A stretch of DNA of 64,000 nt from Deltaproteobacteria bacterium (GTDB lineage Bacteria; Desulfobacterota; Desulfobacteria; Desulfobacterales; Desulfosarcinaceae), in assembly GCA_020444075.1 (NCBI GenBank), contig JAHLLR010000005.1:1-64000 (forward strand), in the 5' to 3' direction. Shown one piece after another: positions 40,391-55,340 of the stretch; positions within the stretch are counted from its first letter, which is position 1, and each line of letters begins with the position of its first letter. The translations under genes and the position numbers were made by a program. The notes below the pieces were generated by a model. That model was not told the origin of the DNA. It was given only the letters and a program-made list of their open reading frames with translations, and did no database searches.

Positions 40391-41251
40391 TCAAACCGCC
40401 GCGCGCCGAACCATGGCTACAAGGGTAGTCAACAAAATGACGGCACCTCCGGCAAGGGTATGGACCGACGGTATCTCATGCAGCAGAAAAAAGGCAAAGA
40501 CAATCCCATACACGGGTTCGAGGCAAGCAATTACGGATGCCAACTGGGCACGGATAAAAATCAGCCCGCGAATGAACAGGGCGTGGGAGAGGGCCGTGCA
40601 GAAAACACCCAACAGCGCCAGCATTCCCCATTGACCGGCATCGATGTGCATATTGGCCCAACCCATCATCGGCAGCAGCAGCAGGGCGGCAAAGCCATTC
40701 TGGTAAAAGGCGATGAGCACCGGCGGATATTCCCGAACCCATTTCCGGTTTAACAGGGAGAGGATGGCAAAGGTGAATCCGGAGATGGTTCCCCAAAGGA
40801 CACCGGAATAAACTTTTCCGCCGAAAGGTGACGGATAAACCATGATGACCACCCCTAGCATGACCAGCAAGGCCGTGAGCAAATCTATTATCCGGCGCTT
40901 TTCATTAAACCACCAGGGTTCGATACAGGTGATGAACACCGGAAAGGTGGAAAAAGCCAGCAGGCCCACAGCCACGCTGGAAACCTGGATGGCATGAAAA
41001 AAAGTGACCCAATGAACCGCCAGGATCAGTCCCAGCAGGGCAAACAACCCCATGGTTTTCGCATTTTTGGGCGGGTTGTTTTGTTTGGTCAGCAACAGAA
41101 CGACACCTAAAGCGATCGTGGCGAAGCCGGTACGGCCCAGAACAATGCACCACGCGGGCATCGCCAGAAATTTGCCGAACAGTCCCGCAAGACCGAAAAG
41201 CAATACGGCTACATGGATATCAACCAGTCCGGAGGTATGAATCTTGTTCAA
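40391..41251 (-). CDS. EamA/DMT-family transporter
   Basis: A 286-residue inner-membrane protein with about ten helices and the two EamA repeats (VDIHVAVLLFGLAGLFGK to VIMVYPSPFGG, and VLWGTISGFTFAIL to the end). The repeat ends carry LEPVYGIVFAFFLLHEIPS, a classical family signature. The open frame extends far upstream, but the family begins near SGLVDIHV. The best start I see is TTG at 41249-41251 with AAAAGG about 7 nt upstream. The upstream frame lies over a degraded protease fragment on the other strand. The substrate is unknown. Confidence 0.82.
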   Translation of the reverse strand: MNKIHTSGLVDIHVAVLLFGLAGLFGKFLAMPAWCIVLGRTGFATIALGVVLLLTKQNNPPKNAKTMGLFALLGLILAVHWVTFFHAIQVSSVAVGLLAFSTFPVFITCIEPWWFNEKRRIIDLLTALLVMLGVVIMVYPSPFGGKVYSGVLWGTISGFTFAILSLLNRKWVREYPPVLIAFYQNGFAALLLLPMMGWANMHIDAGQWGMLALLGVFCTALSHALFIRGLIFIRAQLASVIACLEPVYGIVFAFFLLHEIPSVHTLAGGAVILLTTLVAMVRRAAV

Positions 41252-41884
41252 TTTCAGCCTTTTTTGAAAAGAAGGGGCAGATCCGTTTTCTACACTGACC
41301 CGCGCGGGTTGATCAATGGTTTTATGTTTTTCTTGAATTATGACGGCCAAAGGGCGGGTCATCGGCATCAACACCTTCAAGAAGCTCACCCATAAGTTCG
41401 AAGGCCTGGGGTTTGCCATCTTTATCTCTATCAACGTGGCATTGGATGCATTTGATGCCCTGTGACCCTCATGTATTAAACTTTCGCCGGCGGTTCGAAC
41501 CGTCCCTGGGCGCCATGCCTGACGGTCCGGCCAAACCAGTTGACAATAAAACGAAAACCGTAGTATGCAGGACCTACATTTCATTTCATATCTAATGGTT
41601 AGACGATATTCCGAAAACGTGACAACCCCGATTGTCCACTGGATTTAAACGCTGAGCGGAGCGACATGGCACAGAAAAAAGGTTAAGACAGAGATCGGAA
41701 TGAACATCGGGGAAAGCCTTTTCCACCTGAGGACGGCACTCCCTGGAGATCTGAGCAGTGGTTTAACAAACTGGCTGACCATGCCGGGAGACACCCTTTC
41801 GGTTCAGCCGGCGAACTCCTTTTTCATCGACACGGGTCAATCGTTGAATTGACCCTGTTTCTCAACAGGGAGGCCAGACCGCCC
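41252..41884. other. Long gene-poor region with a protease scrap
   Basis: It contains the serine-protease tail at 41340-41465. A 50-codon frame at 41700-41852 (MNIGESLFHLRTALPGDLSS at its start) has only a weak ribosome site and no family; I do not call it. The remainder shows nothing. Confidence 0.45.
41340..41465 (+). pseudogene. C-terminal scrap of a trypsin-like (DegP-type) protease
   Basis: The plus strand reads GRVIGINTFKKLTHKFEGLG, FAIFISINVALDAF, stop TGA. The GKVIGINT...GLGFAIP pattern is the end of the S1C protease domain. The catalytic His-Asp-Ser part is missing. It lies antisense to the 5' extension of the DMT transporter frame. Confidence 0.55.
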
Positions 41885-43450
41885 ATGAGCACACCCTGCA
41901 GCCGTTTGATGATCATTCTCGCCCTGTGGTCCGTCGCCCTTTTGATCTCCCTGGCTGTCCATGCGCCGACGTTGTCCGCGTCCGAACCGCAGGATACATC
42001 TGCCGACCATCACCCAAGCGATGCCTCACCGGCGCAACCATCGCCGACCGAACCGAACACGGAAGAGGGACACGGCGCGACAGACCAGGGGCGCCATCAT
42101 GGCCATGAGGACCTGGGCCCTGTTCTGCCGTTGTGGAGCTGCATCCCCTTCGCCTGCATGCTGCTTTCCATCGCCTTGTTCCCCCTTCTGGCGCCGGAGT
42201 TCTGGCACCACCACTTCGGCAAGGTGTCCGCCTTCTGGGCAGCGGCCATGGCTGTTCCGTTCCTTTTCGTCTACAAGGGTACCGCCCTGTATGAAATCAT
42301 CCATATTATCCTGGCGGACTATGTGCCCTTCATCATTCTGCTGTGGGCCCTGTATACCGTTTCCGGCGGCATTCTTCTAAAGGGTTCGCTTCGGGGAACG
42401 CCGGTGATCAATGTGATCATCCTGACATTGGGCACCCTTTTGGCCTCCTGGATGGGTACCACGGGAGCCGCGATGCTCCTGATCCGGCCCTTTTTGCGGG
42501 CCAACAATTACCGCAAAAACCGAACCTTCATGGTGGTTTTTTTCATTTTTCTGGTGGCCAACATCGGCGGGTCGCTGACACCGCTGGGAGATCCGCCCCT
42601 GTTTCTGGGGTTTTTGCATGGGGTTTCCTTTTTCTGGACATTCAAAATCATACCCCATATGGCAACCGTCGCCGGATTGCTGCTGGTGATCTATTTTTTT
42701 CTGGATCTATACTACTTCCGTAAAGAAACCGGGCGCGTCCCGGCGGACGAAGCCGAAAAGACACCGCTGAAACTGGTTGGGGTCCACAATTTCATCTTTC
42801 TGGCCGGCATCATCGGCGCCGTGCTGATGAGCGGGATGGTTGACTGGGGGCAGGTCAATGTGCTGGGCGTTCACCGGGGGATCCAGGACTGGGTAAGGGA
42901 CGGCCTGCTGATCGTCATGGGCCTGCTCTCCATGGCCACGACCGCCCTCGAAATCCGGGAAGACAACGACTTCACCTGGTTTCCCATCATCGAGGTGGCC
43001 TACCTGTTCGTGGGCATTTTTATCACCATGATTCCCTGTCTATTGATTTTGAAGGCCGGCGCCAGCGGCCAACTGGCCTTCCTGATCACGGCGGTGAAGA
43101 AGCCGGTGCACTACTTCTGGGTCACCGGTGCCCTGTCCGGCTTTCTGGACAACGCTCCCACTTATCTGACTTTTTTCAACACGGCACTGGGCAGTCACTA
43201 CCCGGGAATGGCCGAGGCCCAGGCGGTCCCGCTGTTGATGACGGACAAGGCCCTGTACCTGGAGGCCATCGCCGCCGGGGCCGTTTTTTTCGGTTCCTGC
43301 AGTTATATCGGCAATGCCCCGAACTTCATGGTCCGCTCCATTTCCGAGGAGGCCGGTACGCCCATGCCCAGTTTCTTCGGGTATATTCTGAAATATACGG
43401 TGGTATTTCTGCTTCCGTCATTTGCGGTGGTAAGCCTTATCTTCTTTTAG
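41885..43450 (+). CDS. Sodium:proton antiporter-like membrane protein (NhaD/citrate-transporter type)
   Basis: A 521-residue protein of the ion-transporter superfamily. Signal-like helix about 10-30, then a His/Pro-rich periplasmic stretch of about 50 residues with many His (HHPSDASP... then HGATDQGRHHGHE), then about 12 helices. Family blocks: LASWMGTTGAAMLLIRPFL, FLVANIGGSLTPLGDPPLFLGFL (the NhaD-type GDP motif), SGFLDNAPTYLTFF and GSCSYIGNAPNFMVRSI. I start at ATG 41885; a longer frame needs TTG. The His-rich segment may bind metal ions or protons. It heads a block of stress and sensor genes (Usp 16 bp downstream). Confidence 0.85.
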   Translation: MSTPCSRLMIILALWSVALLISLAVHAPTLSASEPQDTSADHHPSDASPAQPSPTEPNTEEGHGATDQGRHHGHEDLGPVLPLWSCIPFACMLLSIALFPLLAPEFWHHHFGKVSAFWAAAMAVPFLFVYKGTALYEIIHIILADYVPFIILLWALYTVSGGILLKGSLRGTPVINVIILTLGTLLASWMGTTGAAMLLIRPFLRANNYRKNRTFMVVFFIFLVANIGGSLTPLGDPPLFLGFLHGVSFFWTFKIIPHMATVAGLLLVIYFFLDLYYFRKETGRVPADEAEKTPLKLVGVHNFIFLAGIIGAVLMSGMVDWGQVNVLGVHRGIQDWVRDGLLIVMGLLSMATTALEIREDNDFTWFPIIEVAYLFVGIFITMIPCLLILKAGASGQLAFLITAVKKPVHYFWVTGALSGFLDNAPTYLTFFNTALGSHYPGMAEAQAVPLLMTDKALYLEAIAAGAVFFGSCSYIGNAPNFMVRSISEEAGTPMPSFFGYILKYTVVFLLPSFAVVSLIFF

Positions 43451-43466
43451 GAACGGGAGACCGACA

Positions 43467-44354
43467 ATGACTTTCGAAACCCTGCTTTTTCATACGCGTT
43501 TCCGCGAATTGGCCTTCAACTCGTTAAAGGGCCTTCTCGAATTGAAGGCGGCCGGACTCAAAAAAGTGGTTCTGGCCCACGTGATTCCGCGGGAAGATGT
43601 GGCCTTCGTTCCCTATGGCGGCACGTTGAAAGAAGACGAGAAACGCATTCGCGAAGAGGCCCGCATAAAGTTCGACGACTGGATCCAGACCATCGGCGAC
43701 CCGCAACTGGAATTTGTCCAGCGGATCGAAGTGGGGGCCCCCAATGCCGTGATCCTGGACATGGCCAAAGAGGAGAAGGCCGACCTGATCGTCGTGGGAC
43801 GCAAGAAGCGCACGGCGCTGGAAATGGTGTACGTGGGAACCCACGTCCTTGACATCCTGCGCCGGAGCACTATTCCGGTGCTCATGAGCAAGTACATGGT
43901 GAAGTATGAATGGCAGGGAGAGTCCCTGATGCGCACCAACGAACAGATCTGGAAACGGCCGCTGCTGGCCTCGGACTGGTCGGAACCCTCCCGGCGTGCC
44001 CTCGACGCAACGCTGGCATTAAAAGGGCTGATGGAAAAACTCATCGTCACCCATGTACTGGGTGCCCGACGAATCAAGAATCTGGAGCCGCCGGCGGTCA
44101 AACGTCTTGAAGAAGAAAGTGTGAAACGGCTCCAGGCCTATTGCCGGGAGGTCGACGATGCCGGCATCCCGAGTGAATATCATCTGGCGATGGGCCGTAC
44201 GGTGGAAGAAATCATAAAGATTTCCAGAGATTTCGGTGCCACCATGATCGTTATGGGGCGAACCGGAAAAGACTGGTTCCGGGAGTACTGGCTGGGGGGC
44301 GTTTCCCACCAGATCGCCGAGCTGAGCGAACTGCCGGTGCTGCTGATTCCATAG
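43467..44354 (+). CDS. Tandem universal stress protein
   Basis: A 295-residue cytoplasmic protein with two UspA domains. Domain 1 (about 1-150) ends with ADLIVVGRKKRTALEMVYVGTHVLDILRRSTIPVLM; domain 2 (about 160-295) has ATMIVMGRTGKDWFREYWLGGVSHQI. The GxxG-x9-G(S/T) ATP motif is altered in both (GRKKRTALEMVYVG.. and GRTGKDWF...GGVS), so ATP binding is uncertain. It follows the antiporter gene with a GGGAG site. A second paralogous tandem Usp lies beyond the giant kinase. Confidence 0.88.
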   Translation: MTFETLLFHTRFRELAFNSLKGLLELKAAGLKKVVLAHVIPREDVAFVPYGGTLKEDEKRIREEARIKFDDWIQTIGDPQLEFVQRIEVGAPNAVILDMAKEEKADLIVVGRKKRTALEMVYVGTHVLDILRRSTIPVLMSKYMVKYEWQGESLMRTNEQIWKRPLLASDWSEPSRRALDATLALKGLMEKLIVTHVLGARRIKNLEPPAVKRLEEESVKRLQAYCREVDDAGIPSEYHLAMGRTVEEIIKISRDFGATMIVMGRTGKDWFREYWLGGVSHQIAELSELPVLLIP

Positions 44355-44536
44355 GCGCCAATTTCAAAATGACCCATTTCGGTCAATATCGGCGTTGGGC
44401 TCACATTTCAATCCTCGACATACGGGATGTATGCCTCCGGTTGAAATGGTCGCCCGCCTTGGTTTTGACCAAACGGCAACATTTTTGAAACAGGCTCTTC
44501 AGACAAACCAATAATAGTGTTACGGCTAAAGGTTCC

Positions 44537-47500
44537 ATGATCCGTCAAATCGAAAATGCCAAAATCGCCATTGTCGGGGGGGGCAGGTTCTGCGACAAAC
44601 TGCTCAGACACCTGTTCGGCGACCATTTCAAAGATAGGCATCCAAAAGTCCTGGGCGTCGCCGATCTCAACGACCAGGCGGTGGGCATCACCTATGCCCG
44701 CTCGCTGGGGATCTATACCTGCAGGGATTTCCGCGAAATTTGCCGTCTGGAAGGGTTGGAAACCATCATCGAGGTCACCTGGGACCTTGACCTGGCCCGT
44801 ACCATCTCGCGCCTCAAACCGGCCGATGTGGAACTGATCGACCACCAGGATTCGCGGTTCCTCTGGGACCTGCTGCAGCTGGAAACCATCCGCCAGGAAG
44901 CTCTGAATGAACTGACCACCGAAACGATCACCGTCGAAACGGTCAAGGACCGGATCCATCAATGCTTCCGTAAAACCGCCGACATCGTGATGCAGCGCAA
45001 CCGCCGGTTCAAGCAGATCGAAACCGAACTCTACGAAAAGGAAAAGTCCCTGTCCCAGATTATTCAAGGCAGCACCATCCCCACCTTTGTTATCAACCGT
45101 GACCACGTGGTCACCCACTGGAACCACGCGCTGGAGGTACTCACCGGCCACGGCGCTGACACGATGGTGGGGACCCGCAATCACTGGAAGCCCTTCCGCA
45201 AGCAGGAACGGCCGATCATGGCCGACGTGATTCTCGATCAGTTGGAAACGGGTGAAATTGACCATTACTACGGATCCAAATGGAGACCCTCCACGCTGGT
45301 GGAAGGAGGCTTCGAGGCGGAAGAATACTTCGAGCACCTGGGAGACGGCGGCCTTTGGCTCTTTTTTACCGCCGCCCCCATCAAGGCGTCGGACGGCACG
45401 ATCATCGGCGCCATCGAGACCCTCTGGGACAATACCGAAAACCAGCGGGCCGAGGTTGAACGTCGCAAATACACCCGCCGCATCGAAGAGAGCGAGCGAA
45501 CCCTGTCCCAGATCATTCAGGGCAGCACCATCCCCACCTTCGTACTGAACCGTGATCATGTGATTACCCATTGGAACCAAGCCCTTGAAAAACTGACCGG
45601 CTATCCCGCCGCCAGAATGGTCGGTACCCGCCACCAATGGGAGCCCTTCTATGAAAGTGAGCGGCCCTGCATGGCCGACGTGATCATGGAGCAGCACGGC
45701 GAACAGGACCTGCGCGAGCTATACGGCGAACAATGGCGAAAATCCATTCTCATTGAAGACGCCTACGAGGCTGAAGTCTTTTTCCCCAAGCTGGGAAAAG
45801 CCGGCCGATGGTGCTGGTTTACCGCCACTCCCCTAAAGACATCCGACGGCACCGTGGTGGGAGCCATCGAGACCTTCTGGGACACCACGGAAAACAAACG
45901 GACGGAAACGGAGAGCCGCCGCCACGTCAAGGAACTGGAGGAAAAGGAACAGGCCCTGTCCCAGATCATTCAGGGCAGTACCACGCCTACCTTCGTCATC
46001 AACCGGAACCACATTGTGACCCACTGGAACCGGGCTCTGGAAAAGCTCACCGGTTTTGCCGCCAATGAAATCGTGGGTACCAACCATCACTGGAAACCGT
46101 TCCGCAAAAAAGCGCGTCCCATTATGGCCGACGTGATTCTCGATCAGTTGGAAACCGGTGAAATCAGCCAGTACTACGGGGCAAAATGGCGACCGTCGGC
46201 GTTGGTGGAAGGGGCTTATGAAGCCGAAGAGTTTTTTGAGCATTTGGGCGAAAACGGCCGATGGCTCATCTTTACCGCCGCCCCGATCAAGGCCTCGGAC
46301 GGTACCCTGATGGGGGCCATCGAAACCTTGTGGGATACCACGGAGAAAAAGCGGATCGAGGCCGAGCGCCGTCGGGATATCATCCGCATCGAAGAAAGCG
46401 AAAACCGGCTCACTCAGATCATTCAGGGTAGCACCATTCCCACATTTGTACTGAACCGGGACCATGTCGTCACGCATTGGAACCACGCCCTGGAACGGTT
46501 ATGCGGCTATTCATCCACGAAGATGGTGGGCACCCGTCACCAGTGGGTCCCCTTCTGGGACAAAGAACGGTCCACCATGGCCGATGTCATTCTGGATCGA
46601 CGCAGCGAACGGGAAATTTGGGAGCTCTACGGCGGCAAGTGGAAAAAATCAGAGTTGATCGACGGTGCCTACGAGGCGGAGGTTTTTTTTCCTAAACTGG
46701 GCCAAGGGGGCAAGTGGCTCTTTTTCACTGCCGCTCCGATCAAGGCCACCGACGGAAGCGTCATCGGCGCTATCGAAACCTTCTGGGATACCACGGAAAA
46801 AAAAGAGTCCGAGGCCCAGCGGATCCGTTACACGCGCGAGGTCGAAGAGAGCCGCCGGACGCTCACCCAGATCATTCAAGGCAGCACTATCCCCACCTTT
46901 GTCCTCAATGAGGAGCATGTGGTCACTTACTGGAATCGGGCCCTTGAGCAGTTGACCGGCTACCCGGCCGCCCAGATGGTGGGCACCAACCGCCAGTGGG
47001 TGCCCTTCTGGGACAGCGAGCGGCCGGCCATGGCCGATGTCATCCTGGACCAGAAGAGCGACCAGGAGATCTGGGACCTGTATGGCGGCAAGTGGAAAAA
47101 ATCGGAGTTGATCGACGGTGCCTACGAGGCGGAGGTGTTTTTCCCTAAACTGGGCAATGGCGGCAAGTGGTGCTGGTTCACCGCGGCGCCGATCAAGGCC
47201 GCCGACGGCAGTGTTATCGGTGCTATTGAAACCCTGTGGGACAACACTGAAAAAAAACGGGCCGAAGCCGACCGGCGACAATACACCCGAAAGCTGGAGG
47301 AGAACCAGCGCGCCCTCTCTCAAATCATTCAAGGCAGCACCATCCCCACCTTCGTTTTAAACCGGGACCATACCATTACCCACTGGAACCAGGCCCTGGA
47401 AAAGCTTACCGGCCACCCCTCATCGGAGATGGTGGGCACCACCCGCCAGTGGGCGCCTTTCTGGGACAGCGAGCGCCCGGCCATGGCCGATGTCATCCTG

Positions 47501-49321
47501 GACCAGAAGAGCGACCAGGAGATTTGGGACCTGTATGGCGGCAAGTGGCAGAAATCCGCCCTGATCGACGGTGGCTACGAGGCTGAGGTTTTTTTCCCCA
47601 GATTGGGTAAAGGCGGCCGATGGTGCTGGTTTACCGCTGCTCCGATCAAGGCCGCCGACGGCACCGTGGTGGGAGCTATCGAAACCCTGTGGGACACCAC
47701 CGCGGCAAAACAGGCCGAAGAGGAGCAGCGCCGGCGCAACCGGGAACTGTCCACGTTGTACTCCATCTACACGGCCCTCAACGCGCCGCTGCCCCTGCAA
47801 GAGCGCATTGAAGCGGCCGTGCTGGAAATCCGCGATTTTATGAAAGCGGAAAGCGTGTGCCTTTATATGTCCGAAGGCGGGGGCCGGTTCGACCTGCGTT
47901 ATTTCAACACCTGCTATGCGGACCCGGGGTATGGCCAGGCCGGCCCGGATTCCCAAACGGAGATTATGGACAAGGTCTCCCGCACCGACAAACCCATCGT
48001 CTACAACGCCGGGGATCATCAAAGCCGCTTTTCCAATGAAACCGCGACGACGAGCGCCACCTTCGCCTACATCCCGATCAGCGCCAAGGATAGCAAGGGC
48101 CTTGGCGTCATGCGCATCGAACGGGAAACCGAACGGTTTTCATCGGAGGAACTGCACCTGCTGGACCTGATGGGCAACCGCATCGGGGCTACCATTGAAA
48201 ACGCCCTGTTGCAGGAGGAGATCATCCGCAAATCCAATTTTCAGGCTAAACTGATTAAAAGCGCCAATGACGGCATCATCGCGACGGACGATAAGTGGCA
48301 AACCGTGATTTTCAACCCGGCGGCCGAGCGGATTTTTGGTTATTCCGCCGACGATATTATCTCCATGAAAGATGCCAGGGATTTTCTGCCCCAATGGGTG
48401 CAGGAGACCCTTACCCGAACCGGTTTGGGCAAGGATGCCAACGAAACCTCGCCCTGGGCGGAAAACGATATCCGCGCCAGCACCGGCGAGCCCATTCCGG
48501 TGCGATTTTCAGGCACCGTCCTGCGGGAAAAGAAAAAAATGATGGGAACCGTGGCCTTCTTCCAGGATCTGCGCGAAATCAAGCAGTTGGAGCGGGACCT
48601 GGTGAACAGCGAACGGCTGGCTGCCGTCGGACAGACCGTTGCCGGCATGGCCCACTGCATCAAGAACATCCTCCATGGGTTTAAAGGCGGCAGCTATTTG
48701 ATGGATGTCGGTCTGGAGCGGGACAACACCGAAAAATTGAGAAGCGGCTGGGAGATGATCCAGCGCAACATCACCCGCACCTCAGACCTGGTGATGGACC
48801 TGCTCTCCTACTCCAAGGAACGGGAGCCCGAATATGAATCCTGCAATCCCAATGAAATTGCCGAGGACGTATGTGAACTGCTCGATGGAGTGGCCCGGGA
48901 TCACGACGTCACCATGGTCAAACAGCTGTCCGGCCGGATGATACCGGTGGTCATGGATCCGCGCACCGTGCACCGCTGTTTGATGAACCTGGTGACAAAT
49001 GCCATCGATGCATGTATCTTTGATCCTGATATCGATAAGGAACATCAGGTCACGGTCACCACCGAAAGGGAGGAGAACGGGACCATCCGCTTCGACGTAA
49101 AGGACAACGGGTGTGGCATGTCAGAAGAAGTCCGGTCGAAGCTCTTCTCCTCCTTTTTCAGCACCAAGGGGGTGAAAGGGACCGGGCTCGGTTTGCTGGT
49201 GACGGCCAAACTGGTGGAAGAACACAAGGGAACCATCGACGTTGCATCCACCGAGGGGGAAGGAACCACCTTCAGCATACGATTTCCGGCCCGGGAACCG
49301 GATGCCGTCAGCATGAACTGA
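44537..49321 (+). CDS. Giant soluble histidine kinase: Rossmann domain, six repeat PAS modules, GAF, PAS, HisKA, HATPase
   Basis: A 1594-residue kinase without membrane helices. Residues about 1-130 are a Rossmann-type nucleotide-binding fold (KIAIVGGGRFCDKLLRHLFG, then VLGVADLNDQAVGITYARSLG) like homoserine-dehydrogenase/NAD domains. Residues about 171-1077 are six PAS modules, each 151 residues, with the repeated SQIIQGSTIPTFVLNRDHVV. GAF about 1065-1230; PAS 7 about 1235-1355 (IKSANDGIIATDD); HisKA with phospho-His in GMAHCIKNILHG (about 1370); HATPase with NLVTNAIDAC, DNGCGMSEEV and KGTGLGLLVT. A stand-alone receiver follows 158 bp later. AAAGG precedes the ATG. The ligand is unknown; redox or NAD(P)H state is a reasonable guess from the first domain. 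Confidence 0.9.
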   Translation: MIRQIENAKIAIVGGGRFCDKLLRHLFGDHFKDRHPKVLGVADLNDQAVGITYARSLGIYTCRDFREICRLEGLETIIEVTWDLDLARTISRLKPADVELIDHQDSRFLWDLLQLETIRQEALNELTTETITVETVKDRIHQCFRKTADIVMQRNRRFKQIETELYEKEKSLSQIIQGSTIPTFVINRDHVVTHWNHALEVLTGHGADTMVGTRNHWKPFRKQERPIMADVILDQLETGEIDHYYGSKWRPSTLVEGGFEAEEYFEHLGDGGLWLFFTAAPIKASDGTIIGAIETLWDNTENQRAEVERRKYTRRIEESERTLSQIIQGSTIPTFVLNRDHVITHWNQALEKLTGYPAARMVGTRHQWEPFYESERPCMADVIMEQHGEQDLRELYGEQWRKSILIEDAYEAEVFFPKLGKAGRWCWFTATPLKTSDGTVVGAIETFWDTTENKRTETESRRHVKELEEKEQALSQIIQGSTTPTFVINRNHIVTHWNRALEKLTGFAANEIVGTNHHWKPFRKKARPIMADVILDQLETGEISQYYGAKWRPSALVEGAYEAEEFFEHLGENGRWLIFTAAPIKASDGTLMGAIETLWDTTEKKRIEAERRRDIIRIEESENRLTQIIQGSTIPTFVLNRDHVVTHWNHALERLCGYSSTKMVGTRHQWVPFWDKERSTMADVILDRRSEREIWELYGGKWKKSELIDGAYEAEVFFPKLGQGGKWLFFTAAPIKATDGSVIGAIETFWDTTEKKESEAQRIRYTREVEESRRTLTQIIQGSTIPTFVLNEEHVVTYWNRALEQLTGYPAAQMVGTNRQWVPFWDSERPAMADVILDQKSDQEIWDLYGGKWKKSELIDGAYEAEVFFPKLGNGGKWCWFTAAPIKAADGSVIGAIETLWDNTEKKRAEADRRQYTRKLEENQRALSQIIQGSTIPTFVLNRDHTITHWNQALEKLTGHPSSEMVGTTRQWAPFWDSERPAMADVILDQKSDQEIWDLYGGKWQKSALIDGGYEAEVFFPRLGKGGRWCWFTAAPIKAADGTVVGAIETLWDTTAAKQAEEEQRRRNRELSTLYSIYTALNAPLPLQERIEAAVLEIRDFMKAESVCLYMSEGGGRFDLRYFNTCYADPGYGQAGPDSQTEIMDKVSRTDKPIVYNAGDHQSRFSNETATTSATFAYIPISAKDSKGLGVMRIERETERFSSEELHLLDLMGNRIGATIENALLQEEIIRKSNFQAKLIKSANDGIIATDDKWQTVIFNPAAERIFGYSADDIISMKDARDFLPQWVQETLTRTGLGKDANETSPWAENDIRASTGEPIPVRFSGTVLREKKKMMGTVAFFQDLREIKQLERDLVNSERLAAVGQTVAGMAHCIKNILHGFKGGSYLMDVGLERDNTEKLRSGWEMIQRNITRTSDLVMDLLSYSKEREPEYESCNPNEIAEDVCELLDGVARDHDVTMVKQLSGRMIPVVMDPRTVHRCLMNLVTNAIDACIFDPDIDKEHQVTVTTEREENGTIRFDVKDNGCGMSEEVRSKLFSSFFSTKGVKGTGLGLLVTAKLVEEHKGTIDVASTEGEGTTFSIRFPAREPDAVSMN
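45050..47767 (+). repeat. Six tandem 453-bp coding repeats (PAS modules)
   Basis: The codon for the first Gln of SQIIQGST occurs at 45056, 45509, 45962, 46415, 46868 and 47321: exactly 453 bp (151 codons) apart each time. Two sequence types alternate: modules 1 and 3 carry HWKPFRK...YYG.KWRPS...EEYFEHLG, modules 2, 4, 5 and 6 carry QW.PFWD/Y...LYG..W.KS...EVFFPKLG. Modules 5 and 6 are almost identical DNA over 47010-47095 and 47463-47548. Confidence 0.92.
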
Positions 49322-49479
49322 AACAGGCGCTAAGATGATGAATGTGGACTGCGTTATCGGTCGTCGAAGGGTTTCCTTCCGGCCTCCGATTTCCCGCCTT
49401 GCCAATTAAATATTTTAAAGCCTATAAAAGTACGTTTTCAATTTGAGATATCGGCGTTAACCTTCAAGGAGGCCTCGAG

Positions 49480-49872
49480 ATGAGCAAAAAAGTATTGATT
49501 GTGGACGATGATCCGGATGTAAGGCTGTTTAACACCACTGTTGTGGAAGAGAGCGGCTACATTCCCATCGAAGCAGCCAACGGAGAAGAAGGACTCAAGA
49601 TCATTAAAAAGGATCGGCCGGATCTGGTGGTTCTGGACGTGCTGATGCCCAAACAGAGCGGTATCCGTCTCTATCGTGAATTGAAGACCGACAAGGATCT
49701 GGTAGGCATTCCCGTGATTATCCTCTCCGGGGTGGCCAAGCGCACCTTTTTGCGCTCCCAGAAGGCACTCACGGAATTCGGGGACAAGCCGGTGCCCGAA
49801 CCGGAAAACTATATGGAAAAGCCCGTCGAACCCGATGAGCTTGCCCGGGAGATTAAAAAATTTTTAGGGTAG
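49480..49872 (+). CDS. Stand-alone response regulator receiver
   Basis: A 130-residue single-domain receiver: acidic DDDPDVR, phospho-Asp in DLVVLDVLMPKQSG, Ser in PVIILSGVAKR, Lys in NYMEKPVEPDEL. A strong AAGGAGG site. It is probably the phosphoacceptor of the upstream kinase and may signal on to the Usp or kinase-like proteins. There is an insertion between beta-4 and the Lys (SQKALTEFGDKPVPEPE) not usual in CheY. Confidence 0.92.
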   Translation: MSKKVLIVDDDPDVRLFNTTVVEESGYIPIEAANGEEGLKIIKKDRPDLVVLDVLMPKQSGIRLYRELKTDKDLVGIPVIILSGVAKRTFLRSQKALTEFGDKPVPEPENYMEKPVEPDELAREIKKFLG

Positions 49873-49927
49873 CATTCCGGCCATTGGGACCCGGTATGAC
49901 CATCAAGGCTGGCAAGGATGAGATAAA

Positions 49928-50806
49928 ATGGAGATAAAAAAACTGTTGTTTGTCACCCGTTTTGACAACCTCCGGTTCGATGCGTTGCAGTCCCTGATGG
50001 ACCTTAAGAAAGCCGCCCTGAGCCACGTGGTGTTCCTGAATGTCATCGAGCGGGACAAGGTGGCCATGCGACGGGGCAAGGGCTACGAGAAAGGCGCGGA
50101 AATCCGGCTTCGGGAAAAGGCCAACATCCGGTTTATCGACTGGGCGGAAACGCTTTTCGAACAGGGCATGGAGGTGGGGGTTTATATCGTCGTCGGCAGT
50201 TTTGCCGGCCAGGTGATCCAGGCGGCCGAGAAGGAATCCGTGGACCTGATCGTCCTGAGTCCGGAGCGGAAGGGGCGCCTTGAACAGCTCTATTCCGGGT
50301 CCGACATCACCGAAATCGTTCACCGCTCCGCAACCCCCGTGCTGGTTTATAAATATCTCTCCCAGAAGGGACCATTGGCGGAAAATCCGTTTGAAAAGCC
50401 GTTGTTGGCCACTAACTGGTCTGAGGCCAGCCAGCGGGCCATCGACTATCTTAAATCCCTCAAAGCGGTGATCCGCGAAGTAGACGTGGTCCATGTGGCC
50501 AGCGAAAAAGACCTGAAGGAAACATCTGCCATGGGCATCCAGAAAACCCGCAAGGAAAACCGCAAAAAACTGGATGCCCTGTGCGATGACCTGGAAGATT
50601 ACGGTATCACGGCAAAGCCCCATGTCTATATCGGCGATCCGGTTTCGGAAATCGACAAAGGTGCCAGGGAGTGCCAGTCTTCCATGATTATTGCCGGTTC
50701 CCCGCGTAAAAGCCTGTGGAAGGACCGGTGGGGAACAAGCATCGGCAAAGGACTGGCGGAGCAGTCCATTTTCCCGGTCCTGCTCATTCCTCCCAAAGAG
50801 GGGTAG
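49928..50806 (+). CDS. Second tandem universal stress protein
   Basis: A 292-residue cytoplasmic protein with two UspA domains. KKLLFVTRFDNLRFDALQSLMDLKKA matches the start of the paralogue at 43467. Domain ends are VDLIVLSPERKGRLEQLYSG and SSMIIAGSPRKSLWKDRWGTSIG; canonical ATP-binding Gly motifs are again changed. AAGGATG site. Lies between the receiver and the cytidylate-kinase-like gene. Confidence 0.85.
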   Translation: MEIKKLLFVTRFDNLRFDALQSLMDLKKAALSHVVFLNVIERDKVAMRRGKGYEKGAEIRLREKANIRFIDWAETLFEQGMEVGVYIVVGSFAGQVIQAAEKESVDLIVLSPERKGRLEQLYSGSDITEIVHRSATPVLVYKYLSQKGPLAENPFEKPLLATNWSEASQRAIDYLKSLKAVIREVDVVHVASEKDLKETSAMGIQKTRKENRKKLDALCDDLEDYGITAKPHVYIGDPVSEIDKGARECQSSMIIAGSPRKSLWKDRWGTSIGKGLAEQSIFPVLLIPPKEG

Positions 50807-50864
50807 CGGCCGGCAAGCACCGTGGAAATCGATCCTAACCAGCAACGAGAGTGAGGAGGCACCA

Positions 50865-51497
50865 ATGGCGGTCATCACCATTTCGAGGCAGTTCGGCGCA
50901 GGCGGCATTACTCTTGGCAAAATGATTGCCGATTCTCTGGGCTACACCTTTGCCGACAGCGACATTCTTCAGCGTGTGGCCAAGGAGGCCAATGTCTCCA
51001 CCCACTGGGTTGAATCCTTTGAAAAAGAGGCCGGCAGCAAGCTGTCCCGCATGATTTCCAGCATGATTTCAAAGCGCTGGTTGGATCGGGTGCTGGCAGA
51101 CGAACGTGGCTATCTGGACGAACAGATCTATCTGGACTACCTGGTGCTCATTATTGCCCAGTTCGCCGATGAAGGCAATGTGGTGATCCTGGGACGGGGA
51201 AGCCAATACATTCTCAACGACCACCCCGATGCCTTCCACATTCTGCTGGTGAATGAATTTGAAAGCCGGGTCCAATTTATTATGAAACGCTATGAAATGG
51301 CGCGCAATAAAGCCGAACGGCTGGTGGTCAACGAAGATCGTCGACGGGTGAGCCTCTATAAACGGCTGGGCAAGAGTGATTATGAAAATCCCCAATTATA
51401 CCACCTGGTGCTGAACATGGGGCGGCTGGATCTTGAAACGGCCCGGGACATGGTCTGTACCCTGGTGGAACACAAGGTGGAATTGAACCCTGCGTGA
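50865..51497 (+). CDS. Cytidylate-kinase-like family protein
   Basis: A 210-residue P-loop protein of the cytidylate_kin2 family. The start MAVITISRQFGAGGITLGKMIADSLGYTFADSDIL aligns with the family P-loop, with SRQFGAGG in place of GxxGxGKS; GNVVILGRGSQYIL and the LID-like VNEDRRRVSLYKRLGKSDYENP follow. The true Cmk makes CDP from CMP, but this family's substrate is unknown. ATG with GAGGAGG, 59 bp after the Usp gene. Last gene of the stress/sensor block, followed by a terminator. Confidence 0.82.
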   Translation: MAVITISRQFGAGGITLGKMIADSLGYTFADSDILQRVAKEANVSTHWVESFEKEAGSKLSRMISSMISKRWLDRVLADERGYLDEQIYLDYLVLIIAQFADEGNVVILGRGSQYILNDHPDAFHILLVNEFESRVQFIMKRYEMARNKAERLVVNEDRRRVSLYKRLGKSDYENPQLYHLVLNMGRLDLETARDMVCTLVEHKVELNPA

Positions 51498-51573
51498 AAG
51501 ATCCCGCTGGCTGTTGTTACGGTGCCGGCGCATGGTAACTATCTTTCGGCGTTCAGGATCATTTCCGTTACCG

Positions 51574-51603
51574 AGCAAAGCCGGTATCCGGCTTTGCTTT
51601 TAA
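51574..51603 (+). terminator. Terminator closing the stress/sensor block
   Basis: AGCAAAGCCGG (51574-51584), loop TAT, CCGGCTTTGCT (51588-51598), then TTTTAA. A perfect 11-bp stem. Confidence 0.85.
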
Positions 51604-51757: not shown

Positions 51758-52603
51758 ATCCATATTTTTCGAACCATCAGCCAGATGCGCGGCTTTTCAT
51801 CCGACCTGCGCCGATCGGGAAAGACCATCGCCTTTGTGCCGACCATGGGGTTCCTCCACCCGGGCCACCTATCCCTCATGGAAAAAGGCAAAAGCCTGGC
51901 AGATCATGTGGTGGTGAGCATTTTTATAAACCCCACCCAGTTCGGTCCCAACGAAGATCTGTCCGCCTATCCCAAAGATGAAACGCGGGACCTGGAAATG
52001 ACCCGAAAAGCCGGGGTCGACGCGGTTTTCCTACCCGATGCGAATCAGATATATCCCGAAGGCTTTCAGACGGTTGTATCCTTGAAATTCCTTCCCGGAC
52101 ACCTCTGCGGCCTTTCCCGCCCGGGCCACTTCGACGGCGTCGCCACGGTAGTCACCAAATTGCTGGGCATTGTCAGACCCCATAAGGCCATATTTGGCGA
52201 AAAAGACTATCAGCAGCTGGCGATCATTCGGCAGATGGTCAAGGATCTGGAGATGGGCATCGATATCGTCGGTGCACCCATTGTCCGGGAAGCTGACGGC
52301 CTTGCCATGAGTTCCAGAAATATGTACCTAACGAGCAGCCAGCGACAGTCCGCCACCTGTCTATACCAGGCTCTGCTGGCATCCCGACAGTTGGTGCAGG
52401 ATGGAGAGACCTCTGCCGCTGCCATCACCCGGTCCGCTGCTGCAAGAATCACCATGGTTCCGGAGACAACGATCGATTACATCACCATCTGTGATCCTCA
52501 GACCCTGGACGATGTGCCGGTTGTCAACGGCCCGGTGCTTATGGCCATGGCGGTAAAGGTGGGAAAAACGCGGCTTATCGACAACCTGATGCTTACCCCG
52601 TGA
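51758..52603 (+). CDS. panC: Pantothenate synthetase (pantoate-beta-alanine ligase)
   Basis: A 281-residue enzyme joining pantoate and beta-alanine in coenzyme A synthesis. Motifs: [15 protein letters not shown] (the HxGH nucleotidyl site), [51 protein letters not shown]. The first ATG in frame (51785) would remove the usual first strand. Upstream in the same frame lies IHIFRTISQ, matching the family start (M.I.RTI.EM), with AAGGAG exactly 6 nt before an ATC codon at 51758. I therefore place the start at ATC (or ATT at 51764), a non-standard initiation codon. The conservative start is 51785 (272 residues). Confidence 0.85.
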
Positions 52604-52643
52604 TCCACGGCGGGTTTTTCATTTTGAAAAAAGGAGATCATGC

Positions 52644-53810
52644 ATGACCAACAAATTTCTATTCACCTCCGAATCGGTTACCGAAGGCCATCCGGACAAA
52701 GTGGCCGATGCCATTTCCGACTCCATATTGGATGCCATCATGGCCCAGGACAAAGGCTGCCGTGTGGCCTGCGAAACCCTGGTCACCACCGGCCTGGCTT
52801 TCATTGCCGGCGAGATCACCACCGAATGCTACGTGGATATGCCCCAGATCGTCAGGGACACCATCAAGGATATCGGCTACCACTCCTCCCAGATGGGATT
52901 CGACTGGCGCACCTGCTCGGTGATCACCAGCATCGACCACCAGAGCCCGGACATCGCCCAGGGCGTCAACCGGGGTGAAGGGCGGCATTTGGAACAGGGG
53001 GCCGGCGATCAGGGGCTGATGTTCGGCTTCGCCTCGGACGAGACGCCGGAACTGATGCCCATGCCGATCATGTACGCCCACAAGTTGACCCGGCGACTGG
53101 CCCAGGTGCGGAAAAACGGGGCCCTGGATTTTCTGAGGCCGGACGGCAAATCCCAGGTCACCATCGAGTATCACGACGGCCAGCCCAAGCGGGTGGATAC
53201 CATCGTGGTTTCCAGCCAGCACAAACCGGACGTCACCCATGAAGACCTGCGCGAGGCCATCATCGAAGAGGTGATCAAAAAAGTTATCCCCGCCGGGATG
53301 ATCGACGGGGACACCCGCTATTTCATCAATCCCACCGGACGGTTCGTGGTGGGCGGCCCCATGGGCGACTGCGGGCTGACGGGTCGCAAGATCATCGTGG
53401 ATACCTACGGTGGCCAGGGCAGCCATGGCGGCGGCTGCTTTTCCGGCAAGGACCCGTCCAAGGTGGACCGCAGCGCCTCTTATATGGGGCGGCACGTGGC
53501 CAAGAACATCGTGGCCGCCGGTCTGGCTAAAAAATGCGAAGTTCAGATTGCCTATGCCATCGGCGTGGCCGAACCGGTATCGGTGATGATCGACCTCATG
53601 CACACGGGAAAGGTGCCCAAGGAACGGGTGGAGGAGATCGTCAAAGAAGTTTTCGACCTGAGACCCGCGGCCATCATCGAGTACCTGGATCTGCTGCGGC
53701 CCATCTATCGCAAAACCGCTGCCTACGGCCACTTCGGAAGAACCGAACCGGAATTTTCCTGGGAGCAGACCAACAAGGCGGAGATTATCCGTGAAAAGGC
53801 CGGGTTGTAA
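52644..53810 (+). CDS. metK: S-adenosylmethionine synthetase
   Basis: A 388-residue enzyme making SAM from methionine and ATP. N-terminal [20 protein letters not shown], the hexapeptide-type [12 protein letters not shown], and the P-loop-like [22 protein letters not shown] are intact. AAAAGGAG before the ATG. It lies 40 bp after panC and 75 bp before ahcY, so panC-metK-ahcY may form one transcript with the SAM cycle pair. No SAM riboswitch is visible upstream. Confidence 0.97.
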
Positions 53811-53847
53811 TCAGCGTCAGGACGATTATTTTAGTATTAAAAACAAA

Positions 53848-53864
53848 GGGGGCCAATGGCCCCC
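53848..53864 (+). terminator. Small GC hairpin between metK and ahcY
   Basis: GGGGGCC (53848-53854), AAT, GGCCCCC (53858-53864). No T-run follows. It sits 8-9 nt upstream of the ahcY GGAGG site, so it could shape mRNA stability or translation between the two genes rather than terminate. Confidence 0.45.
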
Positions 53865-53885
53865 GTCATTTATGGAGGAACACCG

Positions 53886-55340
53886 ATGACACTTGCCCAA
53901 AACGTGGTGGCGATTGATCGTCCACCCGCCTACGACCCGTCACTGCCCTATAAAATTGCCGACCTGGCCCTGGCCGACTTCGGTGACAAGGAGATGCAGC
54001 TGGCGGAAAACGAAATGCCCGGGCTCATGGCCGTTCGCGGAAAATACGGCCCGCAGCAGCCCCTCAAGGGGTTGAAGGTCACCGGCAGCCTGCACATGAC
54101 CATCCAGACCGCCATGCTCATCGATACCCTGAAGATCCTCGGCGCCGATATCCGCTGGGCGTCCTGCAACATCTTTTCCACCCAGGATCATGCGGCTGCG
54201 GCTATCGCCCGCAAGGGGGCGGCCGCCGTTTTCGCCTGGAAAGGGGAAAACCTGGAGGAGTACTGGTGGTGCACCGAGCAGGCGCTGGTATGGCCGGACG
54301 GCAGCGGACCGGACCTGATCGTGGACGACGGCGGCGACGCCACCATGTTCGTCCACCAGGGGGTGGCGGTGGAAAAGGACCCGTCGCTGCTGGAAAAAGC
54401 ATACGATTCCGAGGATATGCGGTTGTTGATGGCCCGTTTGAAAACCAGCGTCGAGAAGGACCCCGGATTCTGGACCCGGATCGCCGCATCGGTCAAGGGG
54501 GTTTCCGAAGAGACCACCACCGGTGTCCATCGCCTTTATCAGCTGGCCCAGAGCGGCGGCCTGCTGTTTCCCGCCTTCAACGTCAATGATTCGGTCACCA
54601 AGTCCAAGTTCGACAACTTATACGGTTGCCGTGAATCCCTGGCCGACGGCATCAAGCGGGCCACGGACATCATGATGGCCGGAAAGGTGGTGGTGGTCTG
54701 CGGCTACGGGGACGTGGGCAAGGGCTGCGCCCATTCCATGCGCGGATACGGGGCCCGCGTGCTGGTGACGGAGGTCGATCCCATCTGCGCCCTGCAGGCG
54801 GCCATGGAAGGCTTCGAAGTGACCACCATGGATGACGCCGCACCTCTGGGCGACATCTTCGTGACCGCCACCGGCTGCTACCAGGTGATCACGGGGGTCC
54901 ACATGGAGCGGATGAAAAACGAGGCCATCGTCTGCAATATCGGCCACTTCGACAACGAGATCGAAATGGGTTACCTGGAAAAAAATACCGATTGTAAAAA
55001 AACATCCATCAAACCCCAGGTGGACAAGTGGACCCTCAAGTCCGGCCGGTCCATCATCATCCTGGCCGAAGGACGGCTGGTGAACCTGGGATGCGCCACC
55101 GGCCACCCCAGCTTCGTCATGAGCAACAGTTTCACCAACCAGTGTCTCGCCCAGATCGAGCTGGCCTCGGGAGGGTATGATAAGAAGGTCTACACGCTGC
55201 CGAAGAAGCTGGACGAAGAGGTGGCCCGGCTCCACCTGGCCCGGCTGGGGGTGAAGCTGACCACGCTCACCCCGGTTCAGGCCGACTATCTGGGTGTCTC
55301 CGTAGAAGGTCCCTTCAAGCCGGATCACTATCGCTACTGA
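53886..55340 (+). CDS. ahcY: S-adenosylhomocysteine hydrolase (adenosylhomocysteinase)
   Basis: A 484-residue NAD-dependent enzyme splitting SAH to adenosine and homocysteine. N-terminal [29 protein letters not shown], then [18 protein letters not shown] fold [36 protein letters not shown], and C-terminal KPDHYRY, the conserved Lys-Tyr end contacting NAD. ATG at 53886 with TGGAGGA; 30 extra bases upstream are not in the family. Pairs with metK in the methylation cycle. Confidence 0.97.

Follow-up and report, generated by a model that had tools for sequence, protein, structure and literature searches.

A conserved gene module joining tandem universal stress proteins, a Rossmann-domain sensor kinase and a lone receiver to candidate cation/proton antiporters in Desulfobacterota

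Universal stress proteins (Usp) are very common and seldom have a defined partner. As cited in PMC5549992, UspC acts with KdpD/KdpE in the salt stress of Escherichia coli, and TeaD, a Usp of Halomonas, is thought to regulate the TeaABC transporter; these are earlier examples of Usp that act on a two-component cascade and on a transporter, respectively. According to PMC5109826, Desulfococcus multivorans carries a cluster of kinase, regulator and Usp genes beside the Hmc/Tmc genes, which resembles that of Desulfovibrio vulgaris. Here, we analyze a block of six genes present in a 64,000-nucleotide stretch of DNA, hereafter the window (positions 1–64,000 of contig JAHLLR010000005.1), from a deltaproteobacterium of the Desulfosarcinaceae whose assembly (GCA_020444075.1) comprises 5.6 Mb in 173 contigs. 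Six open reading frames (ORFs), verified in position and all on the + strand, occupy positions 41885–51497 and encode (i) NHA, a CitMHS_2 (PF16980) transporter with a His-rich N-terminal stretch, which we regard as a putative cation/proton antiporter (41885–43450, with an ATG start, a longer version starting at TTG 41849 being possible); (ii) USP1, a tandem universal stress protein with two Usp domains in Pfam (43467–44354); (iii) a fused sensor histidine kinase of 1594 amino acids (44537–49321); (iv) RR, a lone receiver (49480–49872); (v) USP2, a second tandem universal stress protein with two Usp stretches (49928–50806); and (vi) CK, a Cytidylate_kin2 (PF13189) protein, which is an optional last gene (50865–51497). 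In the interpretation that we favor, with a probability of about one half, this module matches the exchange of a cation, probably Na+, for protons to the redox or energy state of the cell.

Like KdpD/KdpE with UspC, the module associates a two-component cascade with both a Usp protein and an ion transporter. In the KdpD/KdpE type, however, a Usp domain lies inside the kinase and the regulator has a DNA-binding output, whereas Pfam finds no Usp domain in the window kinase, which has a Rossmann input, and no output domain, DNA-binding or other, in the receiver; the Usp of the module are separate tandem proteins and its transporter is of the CitMHS_2 or Mrp type. Membership of the KdpD/KdpE type was therefore rejected. 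TeaABC is a TRAP transporter and TeaD has a single Usp domain; a putative link between a Usp and the regulation of a transporter is common to TeaD–TeaABC and the module, but the former involves no kinases. The Hmc/Tmc cluster of D. multivorans and D. vulgaris likewise places histidine kinases, response regulators and Usp beside an energy-conserving membrane complex, and the curated model closest to the window receiver is of the DVU0259 type (NF045717), although its 92.3 bits lie under the cut-off of 160; the partner there is, by contrast, a cytochrome complex. No description of the module was found in the literature searched, most subscription papers being out of its reach, and within this scope the system appears to be undescribed, as the preliminary description of this DNA suggested.

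The block is a conserved signaling and transport module. USP2, its most characteristic part, was searched for in 117 genomes of the same class (E up to 1e-8) and found in 51 of them; 43 genomes, including that of the window, reach at least 280 bits. The 50 loci gathered from the class genomes contain USP2 (43), RR (42), a kinase of the type called HKB below (38), NHA (34), CK (22) and the Mrp antiporter gene MnhE (16), and NHA, kinase and USP2 occur together on one strand in 29 of them, several others being truncated by contig ends. A broader scan of 84,980 species genomes yielded 166 relatives; counts over 80 named loci refer to the best 80 of these 166, whose titles are nearly all Desulfobacterales, its families or Deltaproteobacteria. 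The 80-locus and 50-locus sets overlap (e.g. L098 and L039), and their counts are not additive. Genes in the loci of relatives were called with a simple ORF script, and "nearest gene" means the nearest, at 400 nt or less, among those labeled by our profiles. On this definition, the nearest gene upstream of USP2 is RR in 75 of the 80 loci; downstream, CK takes this place in 47 loci, another receiver in 14 and another Usp in 6. In 43 loci, the sequence upstream of USP2 extends over 8.5 kb or more; of these loci, 41 have RR, 40 an HKB-type kinase, 35 NHA, 34 the Rossmann domain and 11 USP1 (a count of 35 for the HKA-type kinase includes cross-matches from fused kinases, with HKA scores of 92–112, and was not used). 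Whether or not a locus has USP1 makes no difference to the remaining genes. Thus, the genes are neighbors in many Desulfobacterota, as the preliminary description expected of a real system, with gene order and domain content conserved, and these counts rule out chance or a single-genome artefact. The closest named relatives of the window locus are Desulfosarcina (L089–L091, USP2 93% identical); among cultured members of that genus, D. widdelii and D. alkanivorans have the block.

All loci belong to one phylum and many to one order, so one may ask whether the neighborhood reflects shared ancestry only, i.e. vertical descent without common function. Genes that we take, from their sequences, to be PanC, MAT (S-adenosylmethionine synthetase) and AHCY also lie near the module in some loci, and served as a control: upstream of USP2 they are found on the same strand in 0/43 of the above loci and on the other strand in 5/43 (L103, L105, L118, L121 and L129), while in the 67 loci whose downstream sequence reaches 2 kb or more, MAT is present in 11 and PanC in 5. 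Flanking genes are retained far less often than the module, which in addition pairs with different transporters, has fused kinases over several clades and includes a USP1 that comes and goes. Ancestry without common function is therefore very improbable.

What chiefly points to ion homeostasis as the target is the attachment of a single set of signaling genes to two unrelated transporters, one of which is of a known cation/proton antiporter family. In many loci, an Mrp-type Na+/H+ antiporter operon (in Pfam names, MnhE, MnhB, MrpF, PhaG, an Oxidored_q2 subunit and Proton_antipo_M) lies 3' of USP2, in some cases after an extra receiver (L057) or a third Usp (L078, L133 and L137), and in L143, L144, L147, L153, L164 and L166 the signaling genes are sandwiched between the CitMHS_2 transporter and Mrp. 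The region downstream of USP2, in the 67 loci defined above, contains CK alone in 37, MnhE alone in 21, both in one and neither in eight; among the latter, an extended ORF encodes CK in L098 and L103, and Mrp genes lie farther away in L148 and L161. Since the signaling genes adjoin the CitMHS_2 transporter, the Mrp antiporter or both, the antiporter is probably what the module controls rather than its sensor. The preliminary description had drawn a circuit starting from ion or redox stress; of this, a redox or energy input finds support in the predicted Rossmann fold at the kinase N-terminus, discussed below.

The nature of the CitMHS_2 transporter is less straightforward. The window protein scores 589.8 bits with PF16980 (gathering 25.7) and 35.8 bits with PF03600 CitMHS (31.9), and a single copy of PF16980 was found in the genome. 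Searches of the PDB by sequence gave no match (E up to 0.01 with the single sequence, up to 1 with a profile). Its AlphaFold2 model (pLDDT 72.8) resembles ArsB, the best match, then NaS1, Pho90 and a bacterial dicarboxylate/sodium symporter; the seven best Foldseek matches, with TM scores of 0.33–0.47 on a model of this pLDDT, presumably all belong to the ion-transporter (IT) superfamily of ArsB/INDY/NaS1 type. The identification of the transporter as an NhaD Na+/H+ antiporter was rejected, TIGR00775 being unmatched by the window protein and by 17 homologues at E up to 5; the three TIGR00775 matches of the genome all lie on other contigs, and a profile comparison with one NhaD-like protein from a relative gives only a short weak match around a GGxxxPxGD motif common to both. 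Our transporter alignment includes 17 of the 34 references. The transporter might instead be an efflux carrier, or a symporter coupling an anion such as citrate or another carboxylate to Na+, the module then sensing and handling its substrate rather than Na+/H+ balance: Pfam describes PF16980 as putative citrate transport, PF03600 is over its cut-off, and the fold matches after ArsB are sulfate, phosphate and dicarboxylate carriers. However, the same signaling genes adjoin Mrp-type Na+/H+ antiporter genes elsewhere, and we consider an anion carrier unlikely. Antiport by the CitMHS_2 transporter is what we infer from this context, because no NhaD model matches and the fold relatives include anion carriers and ArsB.

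The bond between this transporter and Usp extends beyond the module. The NHA–USP1 pair has a median gap of 15 nt (12 of the 80 loci), and NHA–Usp pairs without adjoining HKA or HKB kinases occur elsewhere in the phylum (L173–L175, L177–L181 and L183–L185). Among the other best PF16980 loci, a tandem Usp lies directly 3' in 13 of 29, with a Rossmann kinase in that place in one more; among 10 lower-scoring loci with full-length PF16980 proteins, one (L234) has a Usp neighbor. The His-rich stretch pointed out in the preliminary description is real in the window, where 7 His fall within the 70 residues preceding the first membrane segment, and at least 5 His are found in the corresponding stretch of 19 of the 26 transporters counted, but relatives do not align over it, and in L064, L071, L072 and L081 only a short version, or one almost devoid of His, is present. 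As separate observations, a distant PF16980 transporter (L243, 3018–5203) has a PF13189 gene immediately adjoining on the same strand, with no kinases or Usp labeled, and the only MNHE (Mrp) locus of the window's genome (L228–L229, contig C31) shows no kinase module in the stretch examined, a tandem Usp gene lying about 2 kb away (C31:52220–53122).

The N-terminal domain of the window kinase (residues 1–170, 44537–45046), which contains a GGGxxC loop, has no Pfam match in the window protein. In an alignment of all 32 such domains found in the window and in loci L039–L088, 17 match the Gfo/Idh/MocA NAD-binding domain (PF01408, GFO_IDH_MocA) at E up to 1 (best 9.4e-05), the window domain not being among them, and the profile of the domain finds acetaldehyde dehydrogenases in the PDB at E 0.006–0.02. 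The AlphaFold2 model derived from the 32 sequences (pLDDT 92.5, pTM 0.84) shows a predicted Rossmann fold, which Foldseek and VIA-align match to the Rossmann domains of dehydrogenases (1nvm: Z 10.6; 98 residues superposed at an rmsd of 1.9). The loop has the consensus G(G/A)(G/N/S)xxC and the Asp closing the second strand is invariant. While the Rossmann fold is also that of the NAD domains of Gfo/Idh/MocA proteins and acylating acetaldehyde dehydrogenases, the N-terminal domain of the kinase differs from these in that 30 of the 32 members have Cys where the loop would have its third glycine, and in that it is joined to PAS, kinase or sigma-54 parts, no dehydrogenase catalytic domain being seen. 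Judging from fold and loop, its putative ligand would be a dinucleotide.

A profile of this domain finds it in 66 of the 117 genomes (E up to 1e-6). Of 37 places with E below 1e-40, 32 share a contig with a USP2 match and 5 do not; the weaker matches inspected lie on PAS kinases of about 480–630 amino acids whose genes precede those of NtrC-type sigma-54 regulators (L256, 3758–6669; L257, 4098–6933; L260, 1987–5291), and in L262 (842–3103) the domain is carried by a sigma-54 activator adjoining a receiver of the same family. It looks like a portable sensory domain without a Pfam name. Its presence on kinases next to NtrC-type regulators and on a sigma-54 activator, together with a sigma-54 activator located inside the Mrp operon of L078, lends some weight to another scheme, in which the two-component part would govern how the antiporter genes are transcribed, by way of a regulator encoded at a distance (e.g. 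a sigma-54 activator), Usp and Cytidylate_kin2 being separate stress effectors of the same regulon. Yet Pfam finds no DNA-binding domain in the six proteins of the window, and USP2 and the receiver are kept as tightly as the kinase; we hold this scheme to be somewhat unlikely.

The remainder of the window kinase consists of six PAS repeats that resemble one another (residues 171 to about 1080, 45047–47776; six are also present in L090, L091, L093, L094 and L096), a GAF domain (residues 1087–1221, 47795–48199) and an HKB-type HisKA + HATPase_c part (48629–49294) with H-box AHCIKN; Pfam reports seven PAS stretches, GAF, HisKA and HATPase over the whole protein. In most relatives, this giant kinase corresponds to two genes, HKA (Rossmann–PAS(s)–GAF–PAS–HisKA–HATPase, some without GAF) and HKB (receiver–PAS–HATPase, about 510 amino acids). 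The window protein joins the front of HKA and the kinase of HKB in one chain, the kinase domain of HKA and the receiver of HKB being missing. Hence, the "giant kinase" of the preliminary description is a single gene in the clade of the window and in some others but not in most relatives. The fused form measures 1594–1599 amino acids in L090, L091, L093, L094 and L096, and the same arrangement is found in L108, L116, L119 and L122, also in L072, and in three kinases located 3' of CK (L099, L112 and L126). No separate HKA or receiver–HKB kinase was found beside the fused gene in the 9 of 9 fused loci checked. In a tree of 71 HKB domains, five changes between fused and split forms, by fusion or fission, are counted, and the fused rows form one clade in 0% of 200 bootstraps; seven rows are neither clearly fused nor split. 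Since the fused genes of several clades have no separate HKA or receiver–HKB beside them, the two kinases appear to act in one pathway. Repeated fusion that removes just the two parts by which HKA would hand its phosphate on to HKB is the trace that a dedicated relay would be expected to leave, and these scattered fused forms may be viewed as a natural experiment in phosphorelay shortening. Separately, the fused kinase is present as two ORFs in L092 and L095 (666 + 931 and 941 + 715 amino acids), which may reflect a sequencing error or real fission.

Histidine kinases usually carry an acidic residue after the phospho-accepting His. The HKA H-box is canonical in this respect (AHE in 47/48), whereas that of HKB reads AH[G/C/Y/S]xKN, without E or D after the His in all 66 sequences, of 71, where the H-box was found; the window kinase is a two-component histidine kinase by its HisKA and HATPase_c domains and lacks the acidic residue. 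The receiver, by contrast, has retained its characteristic residues: D9, D10, D53, S83 and K114 are present in the window protein, D53 and K114 are found in 79/79 aligned sequences each, and D9, D10 and S/T83 are nearly as constant. Pfam recognizes Response_reg alone, in agreement with the lone receiver previously described. Likewise, USP1 and USP2, expected to be paralogues on both sides of the kinase, are 36% identical, have two Usp stretches each and exceed the PF00582 cut-off. The ATP-binding motif of Usp is G-2x-G-9x-G(S/T). Its strict form is found in neither half of USP1 (0/14), with G replacing S/T in the C-half in 14/14, nor in the N-half of USP2 (0/81), and in the C-half of USP2 in 19/81; since the motif is mostly lost, a role of USP1 and USP2 as scaffold or adaptor fits. 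A NIRFIDWA motif occurs in 80 of 81 USP2, a count biased by its use as a scan pattern (27 of 40 references were used in the USP2 alignment).

In the mechanism that we propose, the sensor kinase would read the dinucleotide or redox state by its Rossmann domain, with PAS and GAF as further inputs. In the two-gene form, it would phosphorylate the receiver of the second kinase, which would in turn act on the DivK-like receiver that stands alone. Fusion of the sensor half to the second kinase would shorten the relay in Desulfosarcina, with one presumed phosphotransfer step versus two in the split form. The receiver and the tandem Usp, the latter as scaffold or adaptor, would then act, possibly by direct Usp–antiporter contact, on the CitMHS_2 transporter, the Mrp complex or both, the transported ion probably being Na+. 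More specifically, the GGGxxC Rossmann domain, devoid of a dehydrogenase part, might be the first of a sensory family that reads NAD(H)/NADP(H) or thiol redox and that here drives the relay through tandem Usp adaptors which directly gate Na+/H+ antiporters, a version that we put forward only tentatively. On this version, sodium/proton exchange in sulfate reducers would follow their redox balance; binding of NAD(H) by the Rossmann domain, if real, would link redox state directly to ion homeostasis in organisms living near the thermodynamic limit. In either event, Usp function becomes directly testable here, since dozens of genomes associate a tandem Usp with a defined receiver, a kinase and an ion transporter.

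Several observations weigh against an adjustment of cation/proton exchange to redox or energy state. Of the 117 genomes of the class, 66 lack a USP2 match at E up to 1e-8, among them G079, which is of the same genus (assembly of 2.6 Mb), and the query patterns of the broader scan derive from USP2 itself (NIRFIDWA), so that its locus set is selected by USP2. No Usp neighbor was labeled by our profiles in L235–L243 (9 of the 10 distant PF16980 loci). The Rossmann domain is missing in 9/43 loci, and loci of group f3 have an HKA without it; the Rossmann input is therefore not obligatory. To these points are added the absence of an NhaD model match and the presence of anion carriers and ArsB among the fold relatives of the transporter, the degenerate ATP motifs of the Usp, and the HKB H-box without E/D, which puts the putative kinase activity in question.

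CK, a putative kinase-like protein, is an optional accessory of the module. The window protein scores 163.9 bits with PF13189 (gathering 28) and 37.4 bits with the (d)CMP kinase model TIGR02173, far under the cut-off of 102.1; its solved relatives, 3hdt and 3fdi, are named only "putative kinase" and "uncharacterized protein". At the P-loop position that we take, by eye and from general knowledge, to be that of the Walker-A lysine of kinases, Gly or Ala is found in the 49 of 49 sequences with a recognizable motif, from a set of 53 that includes paralogues near the module and four members that gave no P-loop. A nucleotide output through CK, as proposed in the preliminary description, is not general, CK being found in 38/67 loci and MnhE in 22/67, with one locus having both; the transporter is the more probable target. 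The window's genome has 11 PF13189 matches and 44 Usp-domain matches, many of which are presumably paralogues.

The block was expected to consist of same-strand genes with short gaps and a closing terminator, and does so. Its intergenic gaps are, in order, 16, 182, 158, 55 and 58 nt, the first separating the transporter from USP1. The true start of CK is most likely ATG 50865, rather than TTG 50691 of the ORF list, which overlaps USP2, because the MxVxT start is common to its homologues. The gene 5' of the block (40391–41584) is on the opposite strand. Past CK, an intrinsic-terminator-like hairpin (51573–51599, + strand) has a 12-pair stem and a T-rich tail; its stem is the longest among the 21 sites listed, shuffled sequence giving a mean of 14.7 sites. 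Beyond the hairpin lie, in the same direction, the PanC, MAT and AHCY genes (51785–55340), which are ordinary metabolic genes.

Finally, an ATP synthase Fo locus is found on contig C98 of the window's genome (L233, 2455–4831, minus strand), and also near the module in L044, L105, L113, L121, L122, L138 and L154. It encodes a 324-amino-acid c subunit with four ATP_synt_C hairpins (Pfam, L044 copy) beside a normal c subunit of 82 amino acids. By eye, hairpins 1 and 4 of the large subunit keep the ES carboxylate whereas hairpins 2 and 3 have QT, so that half of the ion sites seem lost; the small subunit has a GEG...SEST pattern, which we take to be of the Na+ type. A PF13189 gene lies near the Fo locus in L233.

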